From the NCBI RefSeq assembly GCF_964019385.1, contig NC_088653.1:17335387-17399386 (forward strand): a stretch of DNA of 64,000 bases, given 5' to 3'. Below are positions 6,558 to 61,300 of this stretch, in pieces. The position numbers and the translations under genes are program-made. Numbering within the stretch: the first letter of the stretch is position 1; every line of letters starts with the position of its first letter. Under the pieces are notes generated by a model. The model did not search any database, was not told the DNA's origin, and worked only from the letters and a program-made list of their open reading frames with translations. The stretch is from Sycon ciliatum (Eukaryota; Porifera; Calcarea; Leucosolenida; Sycettidae).

Positions 6558-7419
6558 CTTAACGAACTTGTGAAGACTACTAACATTTTGTTAGTATACT
6601 GTGACACAAGATATGACACCATGGCCAACCAGGGCCAAACAGACAGAACAAGCTGCTACTAGAACAATTTCAAACGAATAATGCTGTCCTTCTGGACACA
6701 CAGATTAGGCTTATGAATACGTTCTGTCTGTTTGGCCCTGGTTGGCCATGGTGTCATATCTTGTGTCACAGTATACTAGTAGTCTTCACAAGTTATTATT
6801 ATTATTATTTAAATTTTGAATAGGGCAATCCCCACAGGCCTAAGGCCTTTTTACAGGGTACCCTATGTGATCACGTACAGATTTGCGGAATAGTGAAAGC
6901 GAGGAGCAAGAGCGAATGTCAGCTGGAAGAGAATTCCAGCGGTCAGAAGCCAGAAAGCTCAAAGCGAATAAGCCATAACGATTGCGTGCTGTAGGCAGAG
7001 CAAGGGAATCTATGGACTGGGAACGTGTACGGGCAGCTGTGTGTGTTGCGGCAGAACGAAGGCAGAAGCAATCAGAGAGCAGAGTGCTACACATGCCACG
7101 TAGGGCCCGAAAGACAAGAATATACAATTTAAGCTGATAGCGCAGTGCAATAGGAGCAAGGCTATATCTGGTGTGTAAGACTGAAACATCATAGTGCCAA
7201 GGGAAACCAAAAACAATCCTAACAGCGCGGTTAGCAATACGAGTTAGTCTATCATGTTGTGTGGTGTGAAGGCAGTGTACAAACGCATTAGAACCATACT
7301 CAAGGTGTGCTTGAATAAATGAGCAGTAAAAGGTCTTTCTCGCAGCTACTGAGGGCAAGGGAGCAAGTACCAGGTATCTTGCAGGAGAATGATGGAGCTT
7401 ATGAGTCAAGTTCGTTAAG
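6558..7419. mobile_element. Foldback (long-TIR) element split by a LINE insertion
   Basis: The left arm 6558-6651 (from cttaacgaacttg) is the reverse complement of 6720-6794 plus 7413-7419. The left arm has an extra 10-11 bases (taacattttg) near 6581. The right arm is interrupted at 6795-7406 by a LINE 3' end, and the hexamer caagtt is present on both sides of that insertion (6789-6794 and 7407-7412). Removing the LINE restores the perfect outer inverted repeat ending cgttaag. The superfamily is unknown. Confidence 0.75.
6840..7409 (-). pseudogene. CR1/Jockey-like LINE reverse transcriptase, C-terminal 189 codons
   Basis: This open minus-strand frame matches the region downstream of the RT domain in CR1/L2/Jockey-type elements. 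It has a Leu-Glu-Tyr-Gly segment, then Leu-x-Arg-Ile-x-Asn-Arg-Ala-Val-Arg-Ile, then Pro-Ile-x-x-Arg-x-x-x-Lys-Leu, and finally Trp-Asn-Ser-Leu-Pro-x-x-Ile-Arg followed by Leu-Phe-Arg-Lys-Ser-Val. It stays open to the usual C-terminus. The 3' tail (gggattgccctattcaaaa and (ATT)n) lies at 6795-6840. The catalytic domain is missing (5' truncation), so it is not autonomous. Confidence 0.8.
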
Positions 7420-8003
7420 TGCTTTCGCAGTTTTTCCTGTTATTACCTTAGTGCTAGGATTATCATTTTCATAGGTGTTGTTTCTTCTCACTCCAATAAT
7501 AATAATAATAATGACCAGTGTTCAGTCTCCATGGCAACATTGTTGTTGAGATCGAAATGCGGGCGTGTTGGATTTCTTGCGAATTCAAAATACAAAGAAC
7601 AACATTTCTCTTGTTAAGGTTCCATAGTAAACCTATTTACGATACAATACAATGTATTTGCTTTCATTTGTTGTTCAGTTCCCATGGCAACGTTGTCGTT
7701 GACGTTGCAGACATATAGACATGTACCTTGTTGCCAATTATTATTCATTAGTAGCTGTAATTGCACGTTCACATCCATGTTCATCTAATACAAAATACAT
7801 ATTCACGGTGCTCATGTAAGAGTTTTGTAAATATGTCCACTTGTTCAATTACCTTCCTATAATAAGATCATTTGATTGAGATTTCACACAGCGGCTTCCA
7901 GGCTGGCTCTTTGGGGATTGTTTGGCTAGCTTGCTTTGGCCTACTCTCGCTAGGTATAGTGAGACTGAGAGCAGTCCAAAGTCTTGGGCTCTTTCCCCTC
8001 ACC
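7420..8003. other. No recognised gene
   Basis: Contains a short ATA/ATT tract near 7495-7512 and a partial duplicate pair around ccatggcaac (7529 and 7682). I see no coding evidence. Confidence 0.4.
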
Positions 8004-8005
8004 TA

Positions 8006-8258
8006 CAGTGCATTTCAAAACTATAGACGCGTAGGGTTTTTGAAATATTTCAAATCTGGCTGGAACTTTTTGAGAATAGTTTTCGGAATATTGCTCAGGA
8101 TCGCTCCACAATTACTCTCATATAGTTTCTAAAGGATTGAATAACAGACGCCCAATTTGGAAAAATTTATGCACAAAGTGATCACAGATTTTATGTGGTA
8201 TAGATGCTGGCATCACGGTTTTTGCCTAGGTACGCGTCTATAGTTTTGAAATGGACTG
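8006..8258 (+). mobile_element. TA-duplicating MITE, 253 bp, copy 1
   Basis: TIRs (cagtgcatttcaaaactat / atagttttgaaatggactg) are bounded by TA at 8004-8005 and 8259-8260. A near-identical copy of exactly the same length lies in reverse orientation at 60227-60479. This is a Tc1/mariner-type target preference with no transposase. Confidence 0.85.
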
Positions 8259-8691
8259 TAGGGGATTATGAAGAGTAATCCCCTGGGTCAGGGGATTATC
8301 AGCCCTAGAACCCCTGACAAGTCGAGCTATCGAACGTTTTTCACCGAACGAATTATTTTAGTTTAGACCCAACCCCTCCCTCCCTCCCCCTCAGAACGTA
8401 AAAAAAGTTTGACATATGCATGCATGTAGTTGAAGACACCACTGCAGCTGTACTTATGGTTGATAAATATGGTGGTAAAGACACACCTGGCAATATGGCG
8501 GTAAACACACGCCTGCCCACACACGCTCTCTAGGCTGCAAAGTTCTGGCACAGAGCTCTCCTTCTCACCACCACCACCATCAGTTCGCGCCTGGCGCCTG
8601 GTCGATGCATGGCTGGTGGTATCCGGCATAGCAGGCTGGTACATCAAGTAGCGCATGGCACATAGATGATGACACAGCAACGACATAGCTC

Positions 8692-8735
8692 GATTGCGAC
8701 GTACGTTTCGTCCCCGTTGGACTCATCAGGCAATC
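8692..8735 (-). ncRNA. Type I hammerhead ribozyme 1
   Basis: Read on the minus strand: stem I GATTGC pairs with GCAATC, the core CTGATGA is present, stem II is GTCC/GGAC with loop AACGG, then GAA. A minimal stem III (ACG, TA, CGT) follows, and the cleavage triplet is GTC. All 44 bases fit the consensus. Confidence 0.93.
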
Positions 8736-9043
8736 TTCTTCTTGGATGTCTTCATACGGAGCTTGACTCGGGAGAATGTAGTTGAAGACACCACTGCAGC
8801 TGTACTTATGGTTGATAAATATGGTGGTAAAGACACACCTGGCAATATGGCGGTAAACACACGCCTGCCCACACACGCTCTCTAGGCTGCAAAGTTCTGG
8901 CACAGAGCTCTCCTTCTCACCACCACCACCATCAGTTCGCGCCTGGCGCCTGGTCGATGCATGGCTGGTGGTATCCGGCATAGCAGGCTGGTACATCAAG
9001 TAGCGCATGGCACATAGATGATGACACAGCAACGACATAGCTC

Positions 9044-9087
9044 GATTGCGACGTACGTTTCGTCCCCGTTGGACTCATCAGGCAATC
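9044..9087 (-). ncRNA. Type I hammerhead ribozyme 2
   Basis: Identical to ribozyme 1 and exactly 352 bases downstream of it. All stems and catalytic-core bases are intact. Confidence 0.93.
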
Positions 9088-9334
9088 TTCTTCTTGGATG
9101 TCTTCATACGGAGCTTGACTCGGGAGAATGTAGTTGAAGACACCACTGCAGCTGTACTTATGGTTGATAAATATGGTGGTAAAGACACACCTGGCAATAT
9201 GGCGGTAAACACACGCCTGCCCACACACGCTCTCTAGGCTGCCATACCAACCATAAGTACAGCTGCAGTGGTACCATGGTGTCTTCAACTACATTCTCCC
9301 GAGTCAAGCTCCGTATGAAGACATCCAAGAAGAA

Positions 9335-9378
9335 GATTGCCTGATGAGTCCAACGGGGACGAAACGTACGTCGCAATC
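9335..9378 (+). ncRNA. Type I hammerhead ribozyme 3 (inverted half)
   Basis: The same 44-base motif on the plus strand, inside the inverted half of insertion A. The predicted cleavage follows the GTC at 9370-9372. Confidence 0.93.
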
Positions 9379-9624
9379 GAGCTATGTCGTTGCTGTGTCA
9401 TCATCTATGTGCCATGCGCTACTTGATGTACCAGCCTGCTATGCCGGATACCACCAGCCATGCATCGACCAGGCGCCAGGCGCGAACTGATGGTGGTGGT
9501 GGTGAGAAGGAGAGCTCTGTGCCAGAACTTTGCAGCCTAGAGAGCGTGTGTGGGCAGGCGTGTGTTTACCGCCATATTGCCAGGTGTGTCTTTACCACCA
9601 TATTTATCAACCATATGCATGCAT

Positions 9625-9880
9625 AATACAACAAAAGTTGCAAGTGTGTAACTGCTCCTATGGGCATGCACATATATCAATGTTTTCTGAAACGAAATTG
9701 GTCAACCCCCTCCCATCCCACCCTATAACGAAATTATTTCGTTTTGTGAAAAAAGTTCGATAATACATATAATCAAGAGTCCATAAACAGTTTTTTTGTT
9801 TATGCACTCTTGATTATAATGGACGATCCCATAATGCGTTCGTCATTTTTCTGCACGTGCACACGTGACTATTATTGCCC
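9625..9880. other. Spacer between the two retrozyme-like insertions
   Basis: Contains a hairpin at about 9770-9815 (ataatcaagagt / actcttgattat). The right end (from about 9835, cgttcgtcat) matches the region upstream of PC4 copy 2 at 26297-26356, so the PC4 duplicated unit begins here. Confidence 0.6.
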
Positions 9881-10159
9881 GAAACAGGAAAATGAAGTTG
9901 AAGACACCACTGCAGCTGTACTTATGGTTGATAAATATGGTAGTAAAGACACACCTGGCAATATGGCGGTAAACACACGCCTGCCCACACACGCTCTCTA
10001 GGCTGCAAAGTTCTGGCACAGAGCTCTCCTTCTCACCACCACCACCATCAGTTCGCGCCTGGCGCCTGGTCGATGCATGGCTGGCGGTATCCGGCATAGC
10101 AGGCTGGTACATCAAGTAGCGCATGGCACATAGATGATGACACAGCAACGACATAGCTC

Positions 10160-10203
10160 GATTGCGACGTACGTTTCGTCCCCGCTGGACTCATCAGGCA
10201 ATC
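10160..10203 (-). ncRNA. Type I hammerhead ribozyme 4
   Basis: Intact core and stems on the minus strand. The stem II loop is AGCGG instead of AACGG, a change that should not affect catalysis. Confidence 0.93.
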
Positions 10204-10607
10204 TTCTTCTTGGATGTCTTCATACGGAGCTTGACTCGGGAGAATGAAGTTGAAGACACCACTGCAGCTGTACTTATGGTTGATAAATATGGTGGTAAAG
10301 ACACACCTGGCAATATGGCGGTAAACACACGCCTGCCCACACACGCTCTCTAGGCTGCAAAGTTCTGGCACAGAGCTCTCCTTCTCACCACCACCACCAT
10401 CAGTTCGCGCCTGGCGCCTGGTCGATGCATGGCTGGCGGTATCCGGCATAGTAGGCTGGTACATCAAGTAGCGCATGGCACATAGATGATGACACAGCAA
10501 CGACATAGCTCGATTAGCTCGATTTTATCAACCATAAGTACAGCTGCAGTGGTGTCTTCAACTTCATTCTCCCGAGTCAAGCTCCGTATGAAGACATCCA
10601 AGAAGAA

Positions 10608-10651
10608 GATTGCCTGATGAGTCCAGCGGGGACGAAACGTACGTCGCAATC
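10608..10651 (+). ncRNA. Type I hammerhead ribozyme 5 (inverted half)
   Basis: The same AGCGG-loop variant on the plus strand, within the inverted half of insertion B. All catalytic-core bases are present. Confidence 0.93.
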
Positions 10652-11092
10652 GAGCTATGTCGTTGCTGTGTCATCATCTATGTGCCATGCGCTACTTGAT
10701 GTACCAGCCTGCTATGCCGGATACCGCCAGCCATGCATCGACCAGGCGCCAGGCGCGAACTGATGGTGGTGGTGGTGAGAAGGAGAGCTCTGTGCCAGAA
10801 CTTTGCAGCCTAGAGAGCGTGTGTGGGCAGGCGTGTGCTTACCGCCATATTGCCAGGTGTGTCTTTACCACCATATTTATGAAACAGGAAAAGCCGCGAA
10901 AATTCGAAAAGTCGTGCCACGAATCCGTTCAAAAGACTAGTGCTCGAGAAAAACGAATGCAGATCACTTTCTACTTTTTCCAGGTACTCGTAGTCCTAAA
11001 AATTAAATACCGGTACGGTGTTTTACGACTCCCTGGCAAATACCGGTGATTGCAATTTCTGCTCCGTTGTATCTCATTCTCTCAAAGGAACC

Positions 11093-11395
11093 ATGAGTCT
11101 CGCTTTGAGGTGTGCCCGCGCCCTGCGCCCCGCTGGGATCCAGCTGCGCTCTTCTTCCATCATGGACATCCACCAGGGAACTGGCGACAGACAAGGTCAA
11201 CTTATTCGAACTCAAGTCAAGAATCATGAAGGCAAGGTTTATGTGGATATTCGCAGGTACTTTCTTCCGGATCGCGCGAAGAAGGCAGATGATTTTGTGC
11301 CCACCAAGAGGGGTATCTCTCTGAATGTGAACCAGTTCGAGAATCTCGCAGCAGCCATCCCTCAACTTCGTGAGATGATCAAGGAGGAATCGTAA
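11093..11395 (+). CDS. PC4/SUB1-like transcriptional coactivator, copy 1 (100 aa)
   Basis: PC4 (SUB1, p15) proteins are small nuclear single-stranded-DNA-binding coactivators of RNA polymerase II. The core is recognisable from residue 43: a Gly-Lys-Val-Tyr-Val-Asp-Ile-Arg strand, an Arg-Tyr turn, then Pro-Thr-Lys-Arg-Gly-Ile-Ser-Leu-Asn and Gln-Phe, and a C-terminal amphipathic helix. The 40-residue N-terminus is basic and not the Ser-rich arm of vertebrate PC4. ATG 11093 is chosen because it is conserved in all three copies; an upstream in-frame ATG (11018) is not. This copy has one extra codon in the loop between strands (Asp-Arg-Ala-Lys-Lys). Just 3' of the stop, gtaggt ... ttattgtag (about 11449-11518) looks like a short intron in the 3' UTR, arguing against a processed retrocopy. 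The promoter region is interrupted by retrozyme insertion B about 200 bases upstream. Confidence 0.8.
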   Translation: MSLALRCARALRPAGIQLRSSSIMDIHQGTGDRQGQLIRTQVKNHEGKVYVDIRRYFLPDRAKKADDFVPTKRGISLNVNQFENLAAAIPQLREMIKEES

Positions 11396-26296: not shown

Positions 26297-26492
26297 ATGG
26301 CGTTCGTCACTTTTCTGCACGTGCGCACGTGACTATTATTGCGCGAAACAGGAAAAGCCGCGAAAAGTCCAGCCAGCTAGCTGCAGATCCAGGTACTTCA
26401 GGTAGTCCAAAAATACGGTGTTTTACGACTCCCTGGCAAATACCGGTAATTGCAATTTCTGCTCCGTTGTATCTCATTCTCTCAAAGGAACC
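26297..26492 (+). promoter_or_regulatory. 5' region of PC4 copy 2, with the empty retrozyme site
   Basis: Matches the 5' region of copy 1 (9835-9892 plus 10881 onward), including tgcacgtg...cacgtgac E-box-like palindromes and the 12-mer at 26345-26356. The block tacggtgttttacgactccc just upstream of the ATG is common to all three PC4 copies. Promoter function is inferred only from position and conservation. Confidence 0.55.
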
Positions 26493-26792
26493 ATGAGTCT
26501 CGCTTTGAGGTGTGCCCGCGCCCTGCGCCCCGCTGGGATCCAGCTGCGATCTCTGTCCCTCATGGACATCCACCATGGAACTGGCGCCAGACAAGGTGAA
26601 ATTATTCGAACTCAAGTCAAGAATCATGAAGGCAAGGTTTATGTGGATATTCGCAGGTACTCTATTCCGGAGGATTCCCCCGCAGATGATGTTAAGCCCA
26701 CCAAGAAGGGTATCTCTCTGAATGTGAACCAGTTCGAGAATCTCGCAGCAGCCATCCCTCAACTTCGTGAGATGATCAAGGAGGAATCGTAA
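26493..26792 (+). CDS. PC4/SUB1-like transcriptional coactivator, copy 2 (99 aa)
   Basis: The same domain layout as copy 1: a basic N-terminus of about 40 residues, then Lys-Val-Tyr-Val-Asp-Ile-Arg-Arg-Tyr, Pro-Thr-Lys-Lys-Gly-Ile-Ser-Leu-Asn and a C-terminal helix ending Lys-Glu-Glu-Ser. It differs from copy 3 in 14 codons, of which 13 change the amino acid. Differences cluster in the loop between the beta strands (Ser-Ile-Pro-Glu-Asp-Ser-Pro). The frame is intact. The probable 3' UTR intron boundaries are also conserved (gtaggt and ttattgtag). Confidence 0.8.
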   Translation: MSLALRCARALRPAGIQLRSLSLMDIHHGTGARQGEIIRTQVKNHEGKVYVDIRRYSIPEDSPADDVKPTKKGISLNVNQFENLAAAIPQLREMIKEES

Positions 26793-35858: not shown

Positions 35859-36071
35859 CTACAGACAGACTCAGTACTCGTACCCTGGCAGTCCCTGCAC
35901 ACGTGACGCGAATCCGCGTGCAAAAGACACGTGCTGAAATAGCATGACGAGTGTAGATCTGTTCCAGGGACGTTCCGGACTCGTAGTCCAAAAATACGGT
36001 GTTCTACGACTCCCTGGCAAATACCGTTTTGCAATTTCTGCTCCGTTGTATCTCATTCTCTCAAAGAAACC

Positions 36072-36371
36072 ATGAGTCTCGCTTTGAGGTGTGCCCGCGC
36101 CCTGCGCCCCGCTGGGATCCAGCTGCGCTCTCTGTCCCTCATGGACATCCACCAGGGAACTGGCGACAGACAAGGTGAACTTATTCGAGCTCAAGTCAAG
36201 AATCATGAAGGCAACGTTTATGTGGATATTCGCAGGTACTGGGTTCCGGAGGATTCCGCCGCAGATGATTTTCAGCCCACCAAGAAGGGTATCTCTCTGA
36301 ATGTGGACCAGTTCGCGAATCTCGCAGCAGCCATCCCTCAAATTCGTGAGATGATCAAGGAGGAATCGTAA
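36072..36371 (+). CDS. PC4/SUB1-like transcriptional coactivator, copy 3 (99 aa)
   Basis: Intact frame with the PC4 core. The loop here reads Tyr-Trp-Val-Pro-Glu-Asp, closest to the Tyr-Trp found at the same place in vertebrate PC4, so this copy may best preserve the ancestral loop. Relative to copy 1 all codon differences change the amino acid and one codon is absent. The immediate 5' block (tacggtgttctacgactccc) is shared, but upstream of about 35990 it diverges from copies 1 and 2. Confidence 0.8.
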   Translation: MSLALRCARALRPAGIQLRSLSLMDIHQGTGDRQGELIRAQVKNHEGNVYVDIRRYWVPEDSAADDFQPTKKGISLNVDQFANLAAAIPQIREMIKEES

Positions 36372-42457: not shown

Positions 42458-42578
42458 GTCTTTGTTCAACTTCTGCGACAAGTGCCCTGCCCTGGTACGT
42501 TCGGGCCTGGTTTCAATCTGGCTTTGGGAAATTTATTTTTCATTGCTATCGATCAGGTTCGGCCTCGTTTTCTCTGTG

Positions 42579-42622
42579 CTGCGCTGATGAGTCCACAACG
42601 GACAAAACAGTTCTGTCTGCAG
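42579..42622 (+). ncRNA. Solitary hammerhead ribozyme, second family, core mutated
   Basis: Stem I ctgcg/tgcag, core CTGATGA, stem II GTCC/GGAC with loop ACAAC, stem III ACAG/CTGT and cleavage triplet GTC. The conserved G of the GAAA box is A here (GGACAAAAC), which should abolish cleavage. The flanks share tttctctgtgctgcg with the copy at 49323. Confidence 0.75.
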
Positions 42623-43380
42623 ATTGAGTAATTTCGGTTTAGAAACTACACAAGAGAGAGATTGGAAGCTTTGTTACAACTCTGAGTTTCACGTATTACT
42701 ACGATCATCAGGCCACTGATGGATCCAAAACGGGCAGCCAGAACATAATGGGACTATGCAGCAGCAGTTCCGGCGTGAATGATATAGAATAGAGCTGGGG
42801 ACTTAGGGACCGTCCAAGGTTACCAATACTATTTTCAAAACGAAATGTTTTCGTTTGTGGGTGGGTGGGTTTGATGGAGTTTCGTTTTGAAAATAATTAT
42901 TGAATGCTGATGGAGAATGCCCAGTTACTTCTGGGTGTCGAAAATTGACATCAATGTTTTATTGGAATTCGTTTTACCTGCAGAAAAGGTGGGTGGGTGG
43001 GGGCTGAAAAATACTAAAACTTTTCGTTTTGTAAAAACAATCGGTAACCCCGGACGACCCTTTTTAAATGCCAAAATCCACACATATACATGCCCACACC
43101 ATTACACCCATACTCTCTCCCTTTTCTCACATACACAAACATCGGCGGGGTTACAGAGATTTTCCCGCCGCAGAACTCTGCACGGAATTCACTGGGACAG
43201 GATCATCATTTCGTTCAAATCATGCTTGAATTGGTTCGTCTTCACAAAAGTTCACCCTACAGGGTTCGTCGTAAACGAATGATTTTGACTTGATAATTTA
43301 TGATGTCTGGCCAACCATACGCGCGTATACGATTGGCCTTATAATTTCGTACTAATGGAAATTTCGCCTTATCAGTGTTC
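42623..43380. other. No recognised gene
   Basis: Contains similar GT/TTCG-rich segments at 42835-42895 and 42985-43045 (ttcgttttg, ggtgggtggg). No coding signal is recognised. Confidence 0.4.
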
Positions 43381-48760: not shown

Positions 48761-49322
48761 CCTAGATGAGGTCACAAATGAGGGTGGTCGTCCTGACTTT
48801 TCTCTTTTAGAAAAATATTTTCGGGAAAGTCATTCTGCTCAGGTCCTTCTGGGGATCGTTTGAGCTCCTTTTTTTGGCTTTCCCTCTTGTTGGTCAAAGC
48901 TGGTACTTCGCAGGATACTCGATATTACGTTTTAGACTGACATTTCCGTGTGTTATAGTTCTGGTGTTACATGGCACGGTACAGTTAGCTGAGCAAATGT
49001 ATTCTTCAGCTCGTGCTGAGAAGACATCGGTGTACGCCAGAGGATTGAGTAACTTCTGAGACCTAACAAGGAGGCTTCTTGTCGAGACATTTTGCAGGTA
49101 TATAATTATTATGTCCGTAACAATGAACGGTAGGCCGGGCTCCTGCTCGGAAATCTAAAACCTATTTAAGTCCCACATTCCTTAGCTATGGATGTTTTTT
49201 TCCCCTTGATGGTGGTGTTCATGTCTAGAAGACCATCAGGACTGCATGCTGTGTAATAGTCAGCTCAGGGGTCGGCTACCGGTATATTAGTTACATTTTG
49301 TACTTGTTTCATTTTCTCTGTG
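48761..49322. other. No recognised gene
   Basis: A frame of about 60 codons is at 48874-49059, without domain resemblance. Otherwise nothing is seen. Confidence 0.4.
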
Positions 49323-49372
49323 CTGCGCTGATGAGTGCGAGTCCACAAAGGACGAAACAGTTCTGTCCGCAG
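49323..49372 (+). ncRNA. Solitary hammerhead ribozyme, second family, with a 6-nt insertion
   Basis: Stem I ctgcg/cgcag, CTGATGA, GTCC/GGAC, GAAA, stem III ACAG/CTGT and triplet GTC are all present. However, gtgcga (a local duplication) separates CTGATGA from stem II. This would be expected to damage the core unless the inserted bases bulge out. Confidence 0.75.
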
Positions 49373-49667
49373 ATTGAGTATCAACTTTTACAAAAAATAT
49401 TCACTGGTTTGAGGGAAAGACGCGGACGGGAAAAGTCTGAAGTAAAAATTGACTGTCACCACCATGCAGCATGCATGGACTGTCACCATATTTCAAGAAA
49501 CGAAGTATATTTTGTTATAGGGAGAGCGAGGGTGTGAGGGCCCATGACCCCAATTTCGTGTCAGAGAACATCGATATAATTATGCATTATGGAATTGCGA
49601 GCAGTGATGCACTTGTGTCTTTTGTTGTTCATGCAGTTTTTATGTTCTGAGGGTTGGGAAGCTGAGG

Positions 49668-58311: not shown

Positions 58312-61300
58312 ATGGCGTCCGCGTCGGAAGATCCAGTGGATGCGCTGCGCGCTGCCGTGAAAGAGCAGGTAAACCAGGTTCTGTTTGTGCTGTACATATT
58401 TCGTATGGTCACGAGCATGTCGAGTTGCCTGGCCATCTCCTGTTACTCTCAACGTATACATAAACACATTAGAACGTTTGTCAGGATGTGTAGACTCCAC
58501 CGCAGCCAATCCATTCATTATAGTACCAGTCACGAAAACGTCATTCGATGGTCCCTTTGCTGCATTTGAAAAAGAAAAAAATCACCACTATTCCGGCCTG
58601 GCCTGCTGGGCCTATCGTCTGAATAATTGACGTAATTGATATGTTTGGATATCAGTGGACGTATCCTACATGTACGCGAAACGAACTCAAGGGCTGCTTC
58701 GAGCAGCAGGCTATGGTGCAGTACCATTGGCGTGCAACAAAGGAGCACATCCCAGTGTCAAAGACATTTTCAATCTGAGACCAAAAGTACATGAACAAGC
58801 GTATGCAACTGTCAGGGCATAGATTAACGGCCGGACATCGGACATTATCCGGCCATTTTCGGCCACTGACTGGACGTTTTCAATTTCACCGAACATAGTG
58901 TCCGGTCAAAAAAGTAAAAAAAAGAGCAGCGACCTTTCGACCTTTTTATGCAGAGTTGGGCTTTCTTCGGAGCTTCGTGCCAAATGCCACTTGCATATCG
59001 TACAACTAACACGTATACTGTCGTCTCAGGCGTAGACTTCACTATTATTATATACTTGATCCGCCTGTAGCAACGCGTTGTTGCTACAGTCAATTCAGAT
59101 ACGTCCACATAATGAGTCATTGTGAATATACTTCAGTACTACTACTAAAAAAAGAAGAAACACCCTGAAAATGTGTTGTGGAAAATGTCCGGGCATGTCC
59201 GGACAGATTTCAAAACGGAAGGACATTTGTCCGAGCTAAATGAAATCCTTAAGCTATGCCCTGACTGTGATCTACTTAGTCTTTACATGGGCCAGACGCA
59301 CGGTGTGCTGCCTTCATTACATCATGCTGGTGCAGTCCGTGCACTGCGCAAACCAAACACCACACTCTCCCCGCGGTTTGCTTTGAAACCAACGTCCGTA
59401 CGGAAGCGGAGTTTAAGCACCCAGAACTTAGACAGTGCTGCTCAATGAAATCCAGTCGCGGCGTCACTCAAGTTAGCGCCTTGCATCATTTCGCAGCCCA
59501 GTGTTCACAGGTCTAGGGCTGCGCAACGCCCGGCGAGTTGTTGAGTGACACGGCTGGATTTCATTGAGCTGAACTGTAGTTTACTAGTTTGTGTCTGTGT
59601 ACTCGAGCAAATAGATACTAGCAAGAGTACATGACCCCAAGAGTGTGCAACTCCAGCTATGGGGTCTGCGACGGCAGAACTTCACATCACGTGATGAACC
59701 CGTGCACTCTGTGCATGATAGATACTGGGTTGTACGCAGCCCAGCTTTGGGTACAACTCTCTTGTGGTCACTTTGCACTGTTTGCCAGCATAACCTTTTG
59801 AACAATGTCACGTGATGTGAAGTTCTGCCGTCGCAGCACAGCATAGAGGTTGTGCAGGCAGTTGCACACTCTTGGGGTTATGTACTCTTGATACTAGTAT
59901 GCCAAATAACGTGCAACTAGTCTTGTGAGGGCATTGCAGAGTAGTTGCTTACAGAGTTCAAAGTTGTACGGTTACCTGTGACTTGTGCTCCTGCAGAGCT
60001 GACTTGGGGCTCATCGTGTAGACATTGTAGTATGATTTGTATGCAAATTCTCTGCAATGCCGTCCCAAGTCTAGTTGCACGTTATTTGGCATATCATCTA
60101 CTGCATAACATCGAATTTTAGGTGTGCTAAAATTTCGGTGTCAGGGACCTGCCAGGTTTCAGGTGTAATTTAGAATTAGGTGACCAGCTTTCCCTTCACA
60201 TACATTGCATACTCTAGTGCCTTTTACAGTCCATTTCAAAACTATAGACGCGTACCTAGGCAAAAACCGTTATGCCAGCATCTATACCACATAAAATCTG
60301 TAATCACTTTGTGCATAAATTTTTCCAAATTGGGCGTCTGTTATCCAATCCTTTAGAAACTATATGAGAGTAATTGTGGAGCGATCCTGAGCAATATTCC
60401 GAAAACTATTCTCAAAAAGTTCCAGCCAAATTTGAAATATTTCAAAAACCCTACGCGTCTATAGTTTTGAAATGCACTGTAGGTGTGATCTAAATTTAAG
60501 TGCCTGGTTTCTCTAACGAAATCACCGAAATTAAAGTTACACCGAATTTTTTATGTTTTACAGTATCAAAACCCGGTGTGGTGGTACTAGAGGTTGTTCA
60601 TGCGTACTGGGTGTGGTGCGGGCAAGGCAAGGTGTCTCTCACTAACCCAGGATCACACTTGCATACGGGTCAACCCTCTCGTTAGACGGACGACACGGGT
60701 TACAAGACAACCCTCATTACAAGTACAGTCGACCTACCCTTATAACGATATTTGCGGCAGACCAAGGAATATTGTTTTAAGGGTAATAATTATTGTTATA
60801 GGGGCAACTGGTTCATTTCATACACATACGTCATAATGCATGGATTTTGTTCATTTTTTACACCCTTCATATCATACAAACTGACGTACATGCACATGCA
60901 AATTATGTACACAGCAAGGTGCCCGCTGGTGCCCCCATTGCATTTCGTCATGTCCCAGCGGTTTGTCAAGTGAAGCTTGCCACCTGGATAGTGGGTTCTA
61001 CATATTCCCTGCTAGATATTGTTATAGAATGGAAAATGTCGATTGGTCAGCCCATTTTATATCGTTATAGAGGTAATATCGTTATAGCAATATTGTTATA
61101 GAGGTAAGGCATTGTATACAAAAGTCAATGGAGTGATTTGGTTTGGCAGAAAAATATCGTTATAAGGGTAATATCGTTATAGAGGTTATCGTTATAGAGG
61201 TTATCGTTATAAGGATGGTCGACTGTAGTAGGCAACGATCAAAAATCCCCCTGACGCCTGAAACGCCTACATTCACGTCCGGATAATACTTGTAGATCAT

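Follow-up and report, generated by a model that had tools for sequence, protein, structure and literature searches.

The window, a 64,000-nucleotide stretch of the genome of the calcareous sponge Sycon ciliatum, contains two separate insertions built from a 352-bp unit that is repeated head-to-tail and then inverted. Insertion 1 (8426-9611 by refined borders) comprises a minus-strand arm of 2.3 units (8426-9242), a filler of 2 nt and a plus-strand arm (9245-9611), and is flanked by a 13-bp target duplication (exact, CATATGCATGCAT; left copy 8413-8425, right copy 9612-9624). Insertion 2 (9893-10880 by refined borders) is organized likewise, with a minus-strand arm (9893-10515), a filler of 8 nt, a plus-strand arm (10524-10880) and a 12-bp target duplication (exact, GAAACAGGAAAA; 9881-9892 and 10881-10892). 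Both have their left end at one site of the unit, designated A, and their right end at another, designated B (see below). Alignment with an empty, i.e., pre-insertion, paralogue of the insertion 2 site on the plus strand (26303-26366) reveals the 12-bp target once (26345-26356), as against twice around the insertion, and thereby shows the duplication directly. The initial annotation had described the 352-bp unit as repeated head-to-tail and then inverted in two insertions, and we recovered both the 352-nt spacing and the inversions. The span it assigned, 8425-10880, does enclose the two insertions; however, it also covers 256 bp of host DNA between them (9625-9880) and is not one element.

The window holds further repeats and genes. 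Insertion 1 seems to be nested in another inverted-repeat element (8328-8366 and 9723-9762; a weak match, 82% over 40 bp), and a piece related to that element lies at 49491-49578. A 260-bp repeat with inverted ends of about 30 bp occurs at 8001-8262 and 60225-60484, the copies being 98% identical and in opposite orientation; it looks like a small non-autonomous DNA transposon. A gene for a PC4-like transcriptional coactivator is present in three copies (11108-11395, 26493-26792 and 35943-36371) with partly duplicated flanks. The best match of the gene at 26493-26792 is a EukProt protein with 86% identity over the full length, and the copy at 35943-36368 agrees with it at 126 of 128 residues, translated leader included. 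That protein bears an scpid identifier, a numbering employed for Sycon ciliatum in PMC6526912, which accords with the sponge host.

Hammerheads and properties of the 352-bp unit

A covariance scan with the Rfam model RF00163 recovered five type I hammerheads in the two insertions, all exceeding the gathering score of 34 bits and distributed over both strands, as the initial annotation had proposed. Insertion 1 has two on the minus strand (8692-8735 and 9044-9087) and one on the plus strand in the inverted arm (9335-9378), each scoring 37.0 bits; insertion 2 has one on the minus strand (10160-10203) and one on the plus strand in its inverted arm (10608-10651), both scoring 35.4 bits. Stem I of the unit hammerhead is formed by GAUUGC/GCAAUC and stem II by GUCC/GGAC, and stem III lies within the self-complementary ACGUACGU. 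Cleavage is expected after GUC; going by the motif, it would fall between 8698 and 8697 in the minus-strand hammerhead at 8692-8735. We number the unit from the first base after this cleavage site. The ribozyme is also conserved in other copies: across 33 arrays, the core and stems II and III are kept, by pattern, in 77 of the 88 complete units. Within the 44-nt motif, bases deviate from the majority at a mean rate of 0.41%, numerically lower than the 0.69% elsewhere in the unit. When the hammerhead fold is imposed, its energy is 4.6 kcal/mol higher than that of the best local alternative. The hammerhead is probably self-cleaving, as judged from its sequence. Its short stem III and palindromic loop resemble those of the second type of axolotl hammerhead, for which the available part of PMC7229834 describes better activity as a dimer.

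Complete units measure 351-361 nt (n=88), and the GC content of the unit is 52.3%. The folded circle is no better paired than dinucleotide shuffles (z +1.1), 179 of 200 of which fold equally well or better. The sense circle (window 8424-9127, minus strand) has an open run of 164 codons, which is longer than one turn and is matched in length by 4 of 2000 shuffles. This long frame of the window insertions has no match in Pfam, and no other frame of these insertions reads as a reverse transcriptase (RT) by eye. The frame is free of any stop in 4 of 20 units of 351 nt. A total of 72 proteins match the 164-codon frame, some of them more distantly; all come from contigs labelled ‘ena’, and they look like copies of this repeat from a different assembly. 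We leave a coding circle as an observation, the copies being too alike for a selection test. An origin as a tRNA-derived SINE was rejected, there being no tRNA gene and no B box in the unit. Moreover, a search of a viral collection with the exact hammerhead pattern matched no viral or viroid-like contig.

Genomic copies and the geometry of their ends

A DNA search of the 538-Mb genome with the unit returned 1161 candidate places, of which 40 were scored, yielding 179 matches. We analysed 40 arrays, namely 38 loci among the matches listed and the two window insertions; given the fraction of candidates scored, this count of at least 40 insertions, which the initial annotation had called for, is a lower bound on copy number. 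The copies lie on at least 13 contigs (among the matches listed), most with their own target duplications, and are not cargo of one larger transposon. Neither of the two outcomes that the initial annotation had set against its own reading, namely the lack of any match to hammerhead models, or genomic copies without ribozyme conservation and always embedded in a longer DNA transposon, was obtained. The arrays consist of unit sequence with short gaps, larger gaps being found in L038, L051 and L060 only. One array, L049, extends over about 6.3 kb.

The arrays are largely uniform in orientation: by script, a minus-strand arm on the left and a plus-strand arm on the right were found in 33 of 40, and the opposite arrangement in none. 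One of the 33, L060, is regarded as spurious, as its left arm amounts to a fragment of 42 bp at a distance of 878 bp. A single arm only is present in six of the 40, including L045, L058 and L063, which have target duplications, and L038, which falls outside the 33, combines minus-left and plus-right arms with a third arm. The RNA 3' ends point outward in the two-armed arrays, an arrangement that we call tail-out. The inversion noted at the outset in the two window copies was confirmed; however, it is not a mere detail of these copies but the rule in the arrays examined, and as such points to the mobilising machinery. The arms range from 64 to 4914 nt (without L060) and comprise non-integer numbers of units.

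To describe the ends, we defined two windows on the unit after the ends had been seen: B, unit positions 228-253, and A, 264-292. Both ends could be assigned in 29 of the 33 two-armed arrays, the unassigned ones being L060 and the segmental copies L053, L054 and L055, which share their right end and have one end unassigned. L051 was withdrawn because the sequence fetched for it stops at what was scored as its left end. All 28 remaining arrays have one A and one B end (17 A-left/B-right and 11 B-left/A-right), with no case of A/A or B/B. The same holds after trimming for each of the 27 arrays with an accepted target duplication, in which B ends fall at 230-256 (median 239) and A ends at 271-290 (median 277), the spacing between them having a median of 38 nt and a range of 28-50. 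If ends were independent and even, 27 opposite pairs would arise by chance about once in 10^8; L061 and L062, which are segmental copies of each other and were both counted, cost one factor of two. The target duplications are mostly 12-14 bp. A duplication score of at least 10 was obtained for 30 of 39 arrays versus 6 of 1482 mismatched flank pairs (L051 being left out because of its border at the edge of the fetched stretch, and L039 being counted with a duplication mis-anchored inside a longer repeat); the target duplications therefore exceed chance.

The intact GUC/GCAAUC junction is read through at least once in each of the 40 arrays, which indicates a circular or multimeric template and not a cut monomer. 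Of the central junctions between the arms (n=33, segmental copies counted separately), 23 overlap by at least 1 nt, 4 are blunt and 6 contain filler; their positions are scattered over the unit, and 2 of their 66 ends come to within 5 nt of the cleavage site. Units differ on average by 5.0 positions between arrays (3578 pairs) as against 2.5 positions within the same arm (172 pairs) and 2.0 between the two arms of an array (78 pairs). This lower divergence within arrays fits one template per insertion, with gene conversion and later mutation as factors that can contribute to the differences within an array. In L064 the units differ by up to 15 positions, and for such mixed arrays a multimeric linear template or later mutation fits as well as one circle.

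The genome also has another hammerhead family (L083 with L085, L086 and L087), unrelated in sequence to the 352-bp unit and built from units of 226 bp. Fragments of it lie in the window at 42527-42636 and 49309-49381, with a degenerate hammerhead at 49322-49373 (21.5 bits by Rfam). Like the 352-bp family, it consists of tandem type I hammerhead units; however, no inverted arms were found in the nine records examined, of which several are small fragments or run off the edge of the fetched sequence. In eight of the nine, sense-strand ends are repeatedly located 7-18 nt downstream of the cleavage site, whereas L052 ends elsewhere. Thus, the two-armed rule is not simply a product of the method, and not every hammerhead repeat of this genome follows it.

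Resident Penelope-like elements and the mode of insertion

Penelope-like elements (PLEs) offer a published parallel for this end geometry. The purified PLE protein of the anole cuts and extends both target strands; it starts at two neighbouring internal positions of the RNA, and the segment that these enclose corresponds to the 30-40 bp ‘tail’ at some genomic ends (PMC11167929, as available in part). In rotifer PLEs, the pLTRs are inverted and one of them may carry a tail; target duplications measure 8-10 bp in the cases described in the available part of PMC3846280. A GIY-YIG search of the sponge genome gave at least 13 matches (150 of 944 candidates scored). One of these (L069, C291:4414-7641), whose frame looks UvrC-like by eye, lies on a 17.5-kb contig that probably derives from an associated bacterium. 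The open frame of L082 spans 807 codons; its GIY-YIG domain exceeds the cut-off, and RT motifs can be recognized in it by eye. A 612-aa relative, L079, likewise has a GIY-YIG domain over the cut-off, along with an RVT_1 match of 27.4 bits, below the cut-off of 29.6. A short hammerhead-like motif was found by pattern in 9 of 12 distinct GIY-YIG loci (L070-L081); Rfam did not call the hammerhead-like motif in L082.

Both resident PLE loci for which the two ends were recovered show the retrozyme-like end geometry. L082 (2244-5511) has tail-out arms, a tail on the left only and an 11-bp direct repeat, and L081 (868-2443) has tail-out arms, a tail on the right only and a direct repeat of up to 14 bp, the tail measuring 34-37 nt. 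By eye, the tail of the resident PLEs (L076, L077, L081 and L082) carries an ATG close to where it begins, and the open reading frame may start with this tail. The corresponding B-to-A interval of the retrozyme (unit coordinates ~240-277), which in insertion 1 runs without a break between the first and second units (8773-8810, minus strand), would be a tail-like stretch between two reverse-transcription start sites. When compared with the resident PLE tails, it aligned end-to-end in one of three comparisons (35 of 5000 shuffles of the interval and 104 of 2000 of the whole circle were as good), and in the other two the best or equal-best match lay elsewhere; we do not claim homology on the basis of one suggestive comparison in three.

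One-A/one-B ends about 38 nt apart, together with tail-out arms, match the published PLE pattern and thus argue for mobilising machinery of the PLE type. In our view, the likely explanation of the arrays is a young, multi-copy, non-autonomous retrozyme family of a calcareous sponge that a PLE reverse transcriptase copied into DNA, working on the two strands of the target. Counting against this explanation are the unremarkable pairing of the circle, the energy of the imposed hammerhead fold, the GC content of the unit, the lack of a significant match between the unit and the PLE loci examined, the six one-armed arrays and the divergence of units in arrays such as L064. Under this proposal, an array would be transcribed, the type I hammerheads would cut the transcript into 352-nt monomers, and these would be closed into circles. 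A PLE protein with RT and GIY-YIG domains would then cut the target with a stagger of about 12 bp, and both freed target 3' ends would prime reverse transcription, one from A (~277) and the other from B (~239), about 38 nt apart, each run covering anywhere between a fraction of the circle and many rounds of it. Finally, the two cDNAs would be joined back to back at scattered points, mostly via 1-5 nt of matching sequence, and gap filling would leave the target duplication. The sequence itself shows the hammerhead motifs, the target duplications with the empty site, the tail-out arrays with their one-A/one-B ends, the read-through of the cleavage junction and the like geometry of two resident PLEs; we infer the cleavage, the circularity and the PLE protein as helper. 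With somewhat less assurance, we favour the more specific reading that the circle offers two fixed RT start sites about 38 nt apart, of which one PLE enzyme per cut strand reads one, so that the insertion records two rolling-circle runs.

The fixed ends also bear on whether LINE-type machinery moved the retrozyme. In twin priming, known for LINE-1, one end corresponds to the RNA 3' end and the other to an arbitrary internal site, and inversions arising in this way would likewise be tail-out and accompanied by target duplications. A LINE-like RT fragment may lie at 6840-7439 of the window (by eye; no Pfam match), and the one-armed copies with target duplications resemble ordinary 5'-truncated insertions. 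However, arbitrary second priming would scatter one end, whereas both ends are fixed and complementary in all 28 assignable arrays, which counts against LINE twin priming; moreover, the ends inspected by eye show no 3' poly(A) or simple-repeat tail of the element. We accordingly regard the LINE explanation as unlikely. It is also improbable that the arrays are pseudo-LTR remnants of a resident PLE instead of an independent retrozyme family: the hammerhead-like motif of the GIY-YIG loci and the end geometry of L081 and L082 speak for such remnants, but the unit has no significant similarity to the PLE loci examined (best E 3.1; 150 of 944 PLE candidates scored), the arrays are made of unit sequence with mostly short gaps, and the unit and PLE hammerheads differ in both stem II and stem III.

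Inverted structure and target duplications would also be found in a DNA transposon or foldback element with long inverted repeats, carrying ribozyme-like sequences as passengers. Such an origin is very hard to reconcile with two ends that are not the same sequence but are offset by about 38 nt, and with arms of widely varying, non-integer length and scattered junctions, which are unlike transposase-cut ends. Head-to-tail units and the size of L049 might instead suggest a satellite array amplified in place by recombination and not via RNA; however, the dispersal of the copies over contigs, most with separate target duplications, and the empty site of insertion 2 render this highly improbable. 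The PLE-driven retrozyme proposal, if its two-site reading of a circle is true, would identify the helper of animal retrozymes and provide a genomic assay for it. The insertion ends answer the helper question through their structure, whose signature agrees with what has been published on PLE biochemistry, and the question is now testable both by scoring the ends of any retrozyme family in any genome and by combining retrozyme RNA with purified PLE protein.

Relationship to known retrozymes and Penelope-like elements

PLEs had been considered a strong candidate helper of metazoan retrozymes on indirect grounds (Cervera and de la Pena 2020, PMC7229834, as available in part), and as late as 2024 a review named either LINEs or PLEs as the movers of animal retrozymes (PMC11722881, likewise). 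In the portions of the literature searched, we found the PLE reverse transcriptase proposed as retrozyme mobiliser (PMC7229834) but no demonstration of this role; nor was the two-site rule or any sponge retrozyme reported in the literature searched, including the available parts of PMC7761336, PMC11722881 and PMC8490949, which is not proof of absence. The present family extends retrozymes to calcareous sponges, for which we found no earlier report in the same search.

Metazoan retrozymes, as described in the available part of PMC7229834, have a type I hammerhead, tandem units of 170-400 nt and target duplications of more than 4 bp, with a GC content under 50%, self-paired circles and no LTR, PBS or PPT described. 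The sponge family shares with them the type I hammerhead in each unit, the head-to-tail units (352 bp, as against 170-400 bp) and the target duplications (mostly 12-14 bp, as against more than 4 bp), and these features support the metazoan retrozyme reading of the initial annotation. It departs from them in two descriptive traits, the GC content of the unit being 52% and the circle not being unusually self-paired, and in its host, a sponge. Furthermore, the metazoan retrozymes are presented there as tandem copies, with no inversion mentioned in the part available, whereas most of the sponge arrays examined are tail-out palindromes with two fixed ends. The W-elements of Schistosoma (PMC8490949, as available in part) are likewise transcribed repeats with type I hammerheads, flanking duplications being noted for one element; unlike in the sponge, no two-armed rule is described for them there. 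In the organization of their ends, the sponge arrays are akin to PLEs (PMC3846280 and PMC11167929, both in part): they share inverted repeats with RNA 3' ends pointing outward, a hammerhead, short target duplications and a tail of 30-40 nt that is present at one end and absent at the other. Unlike PLEs, however, they have no RT or GIY-YIG gene (no Pfam match; by eye), their unit is 352 nt, and, in place of the minimal PLE hammerhead, they carry a fuller one with a GUCC/GGAC stem II.
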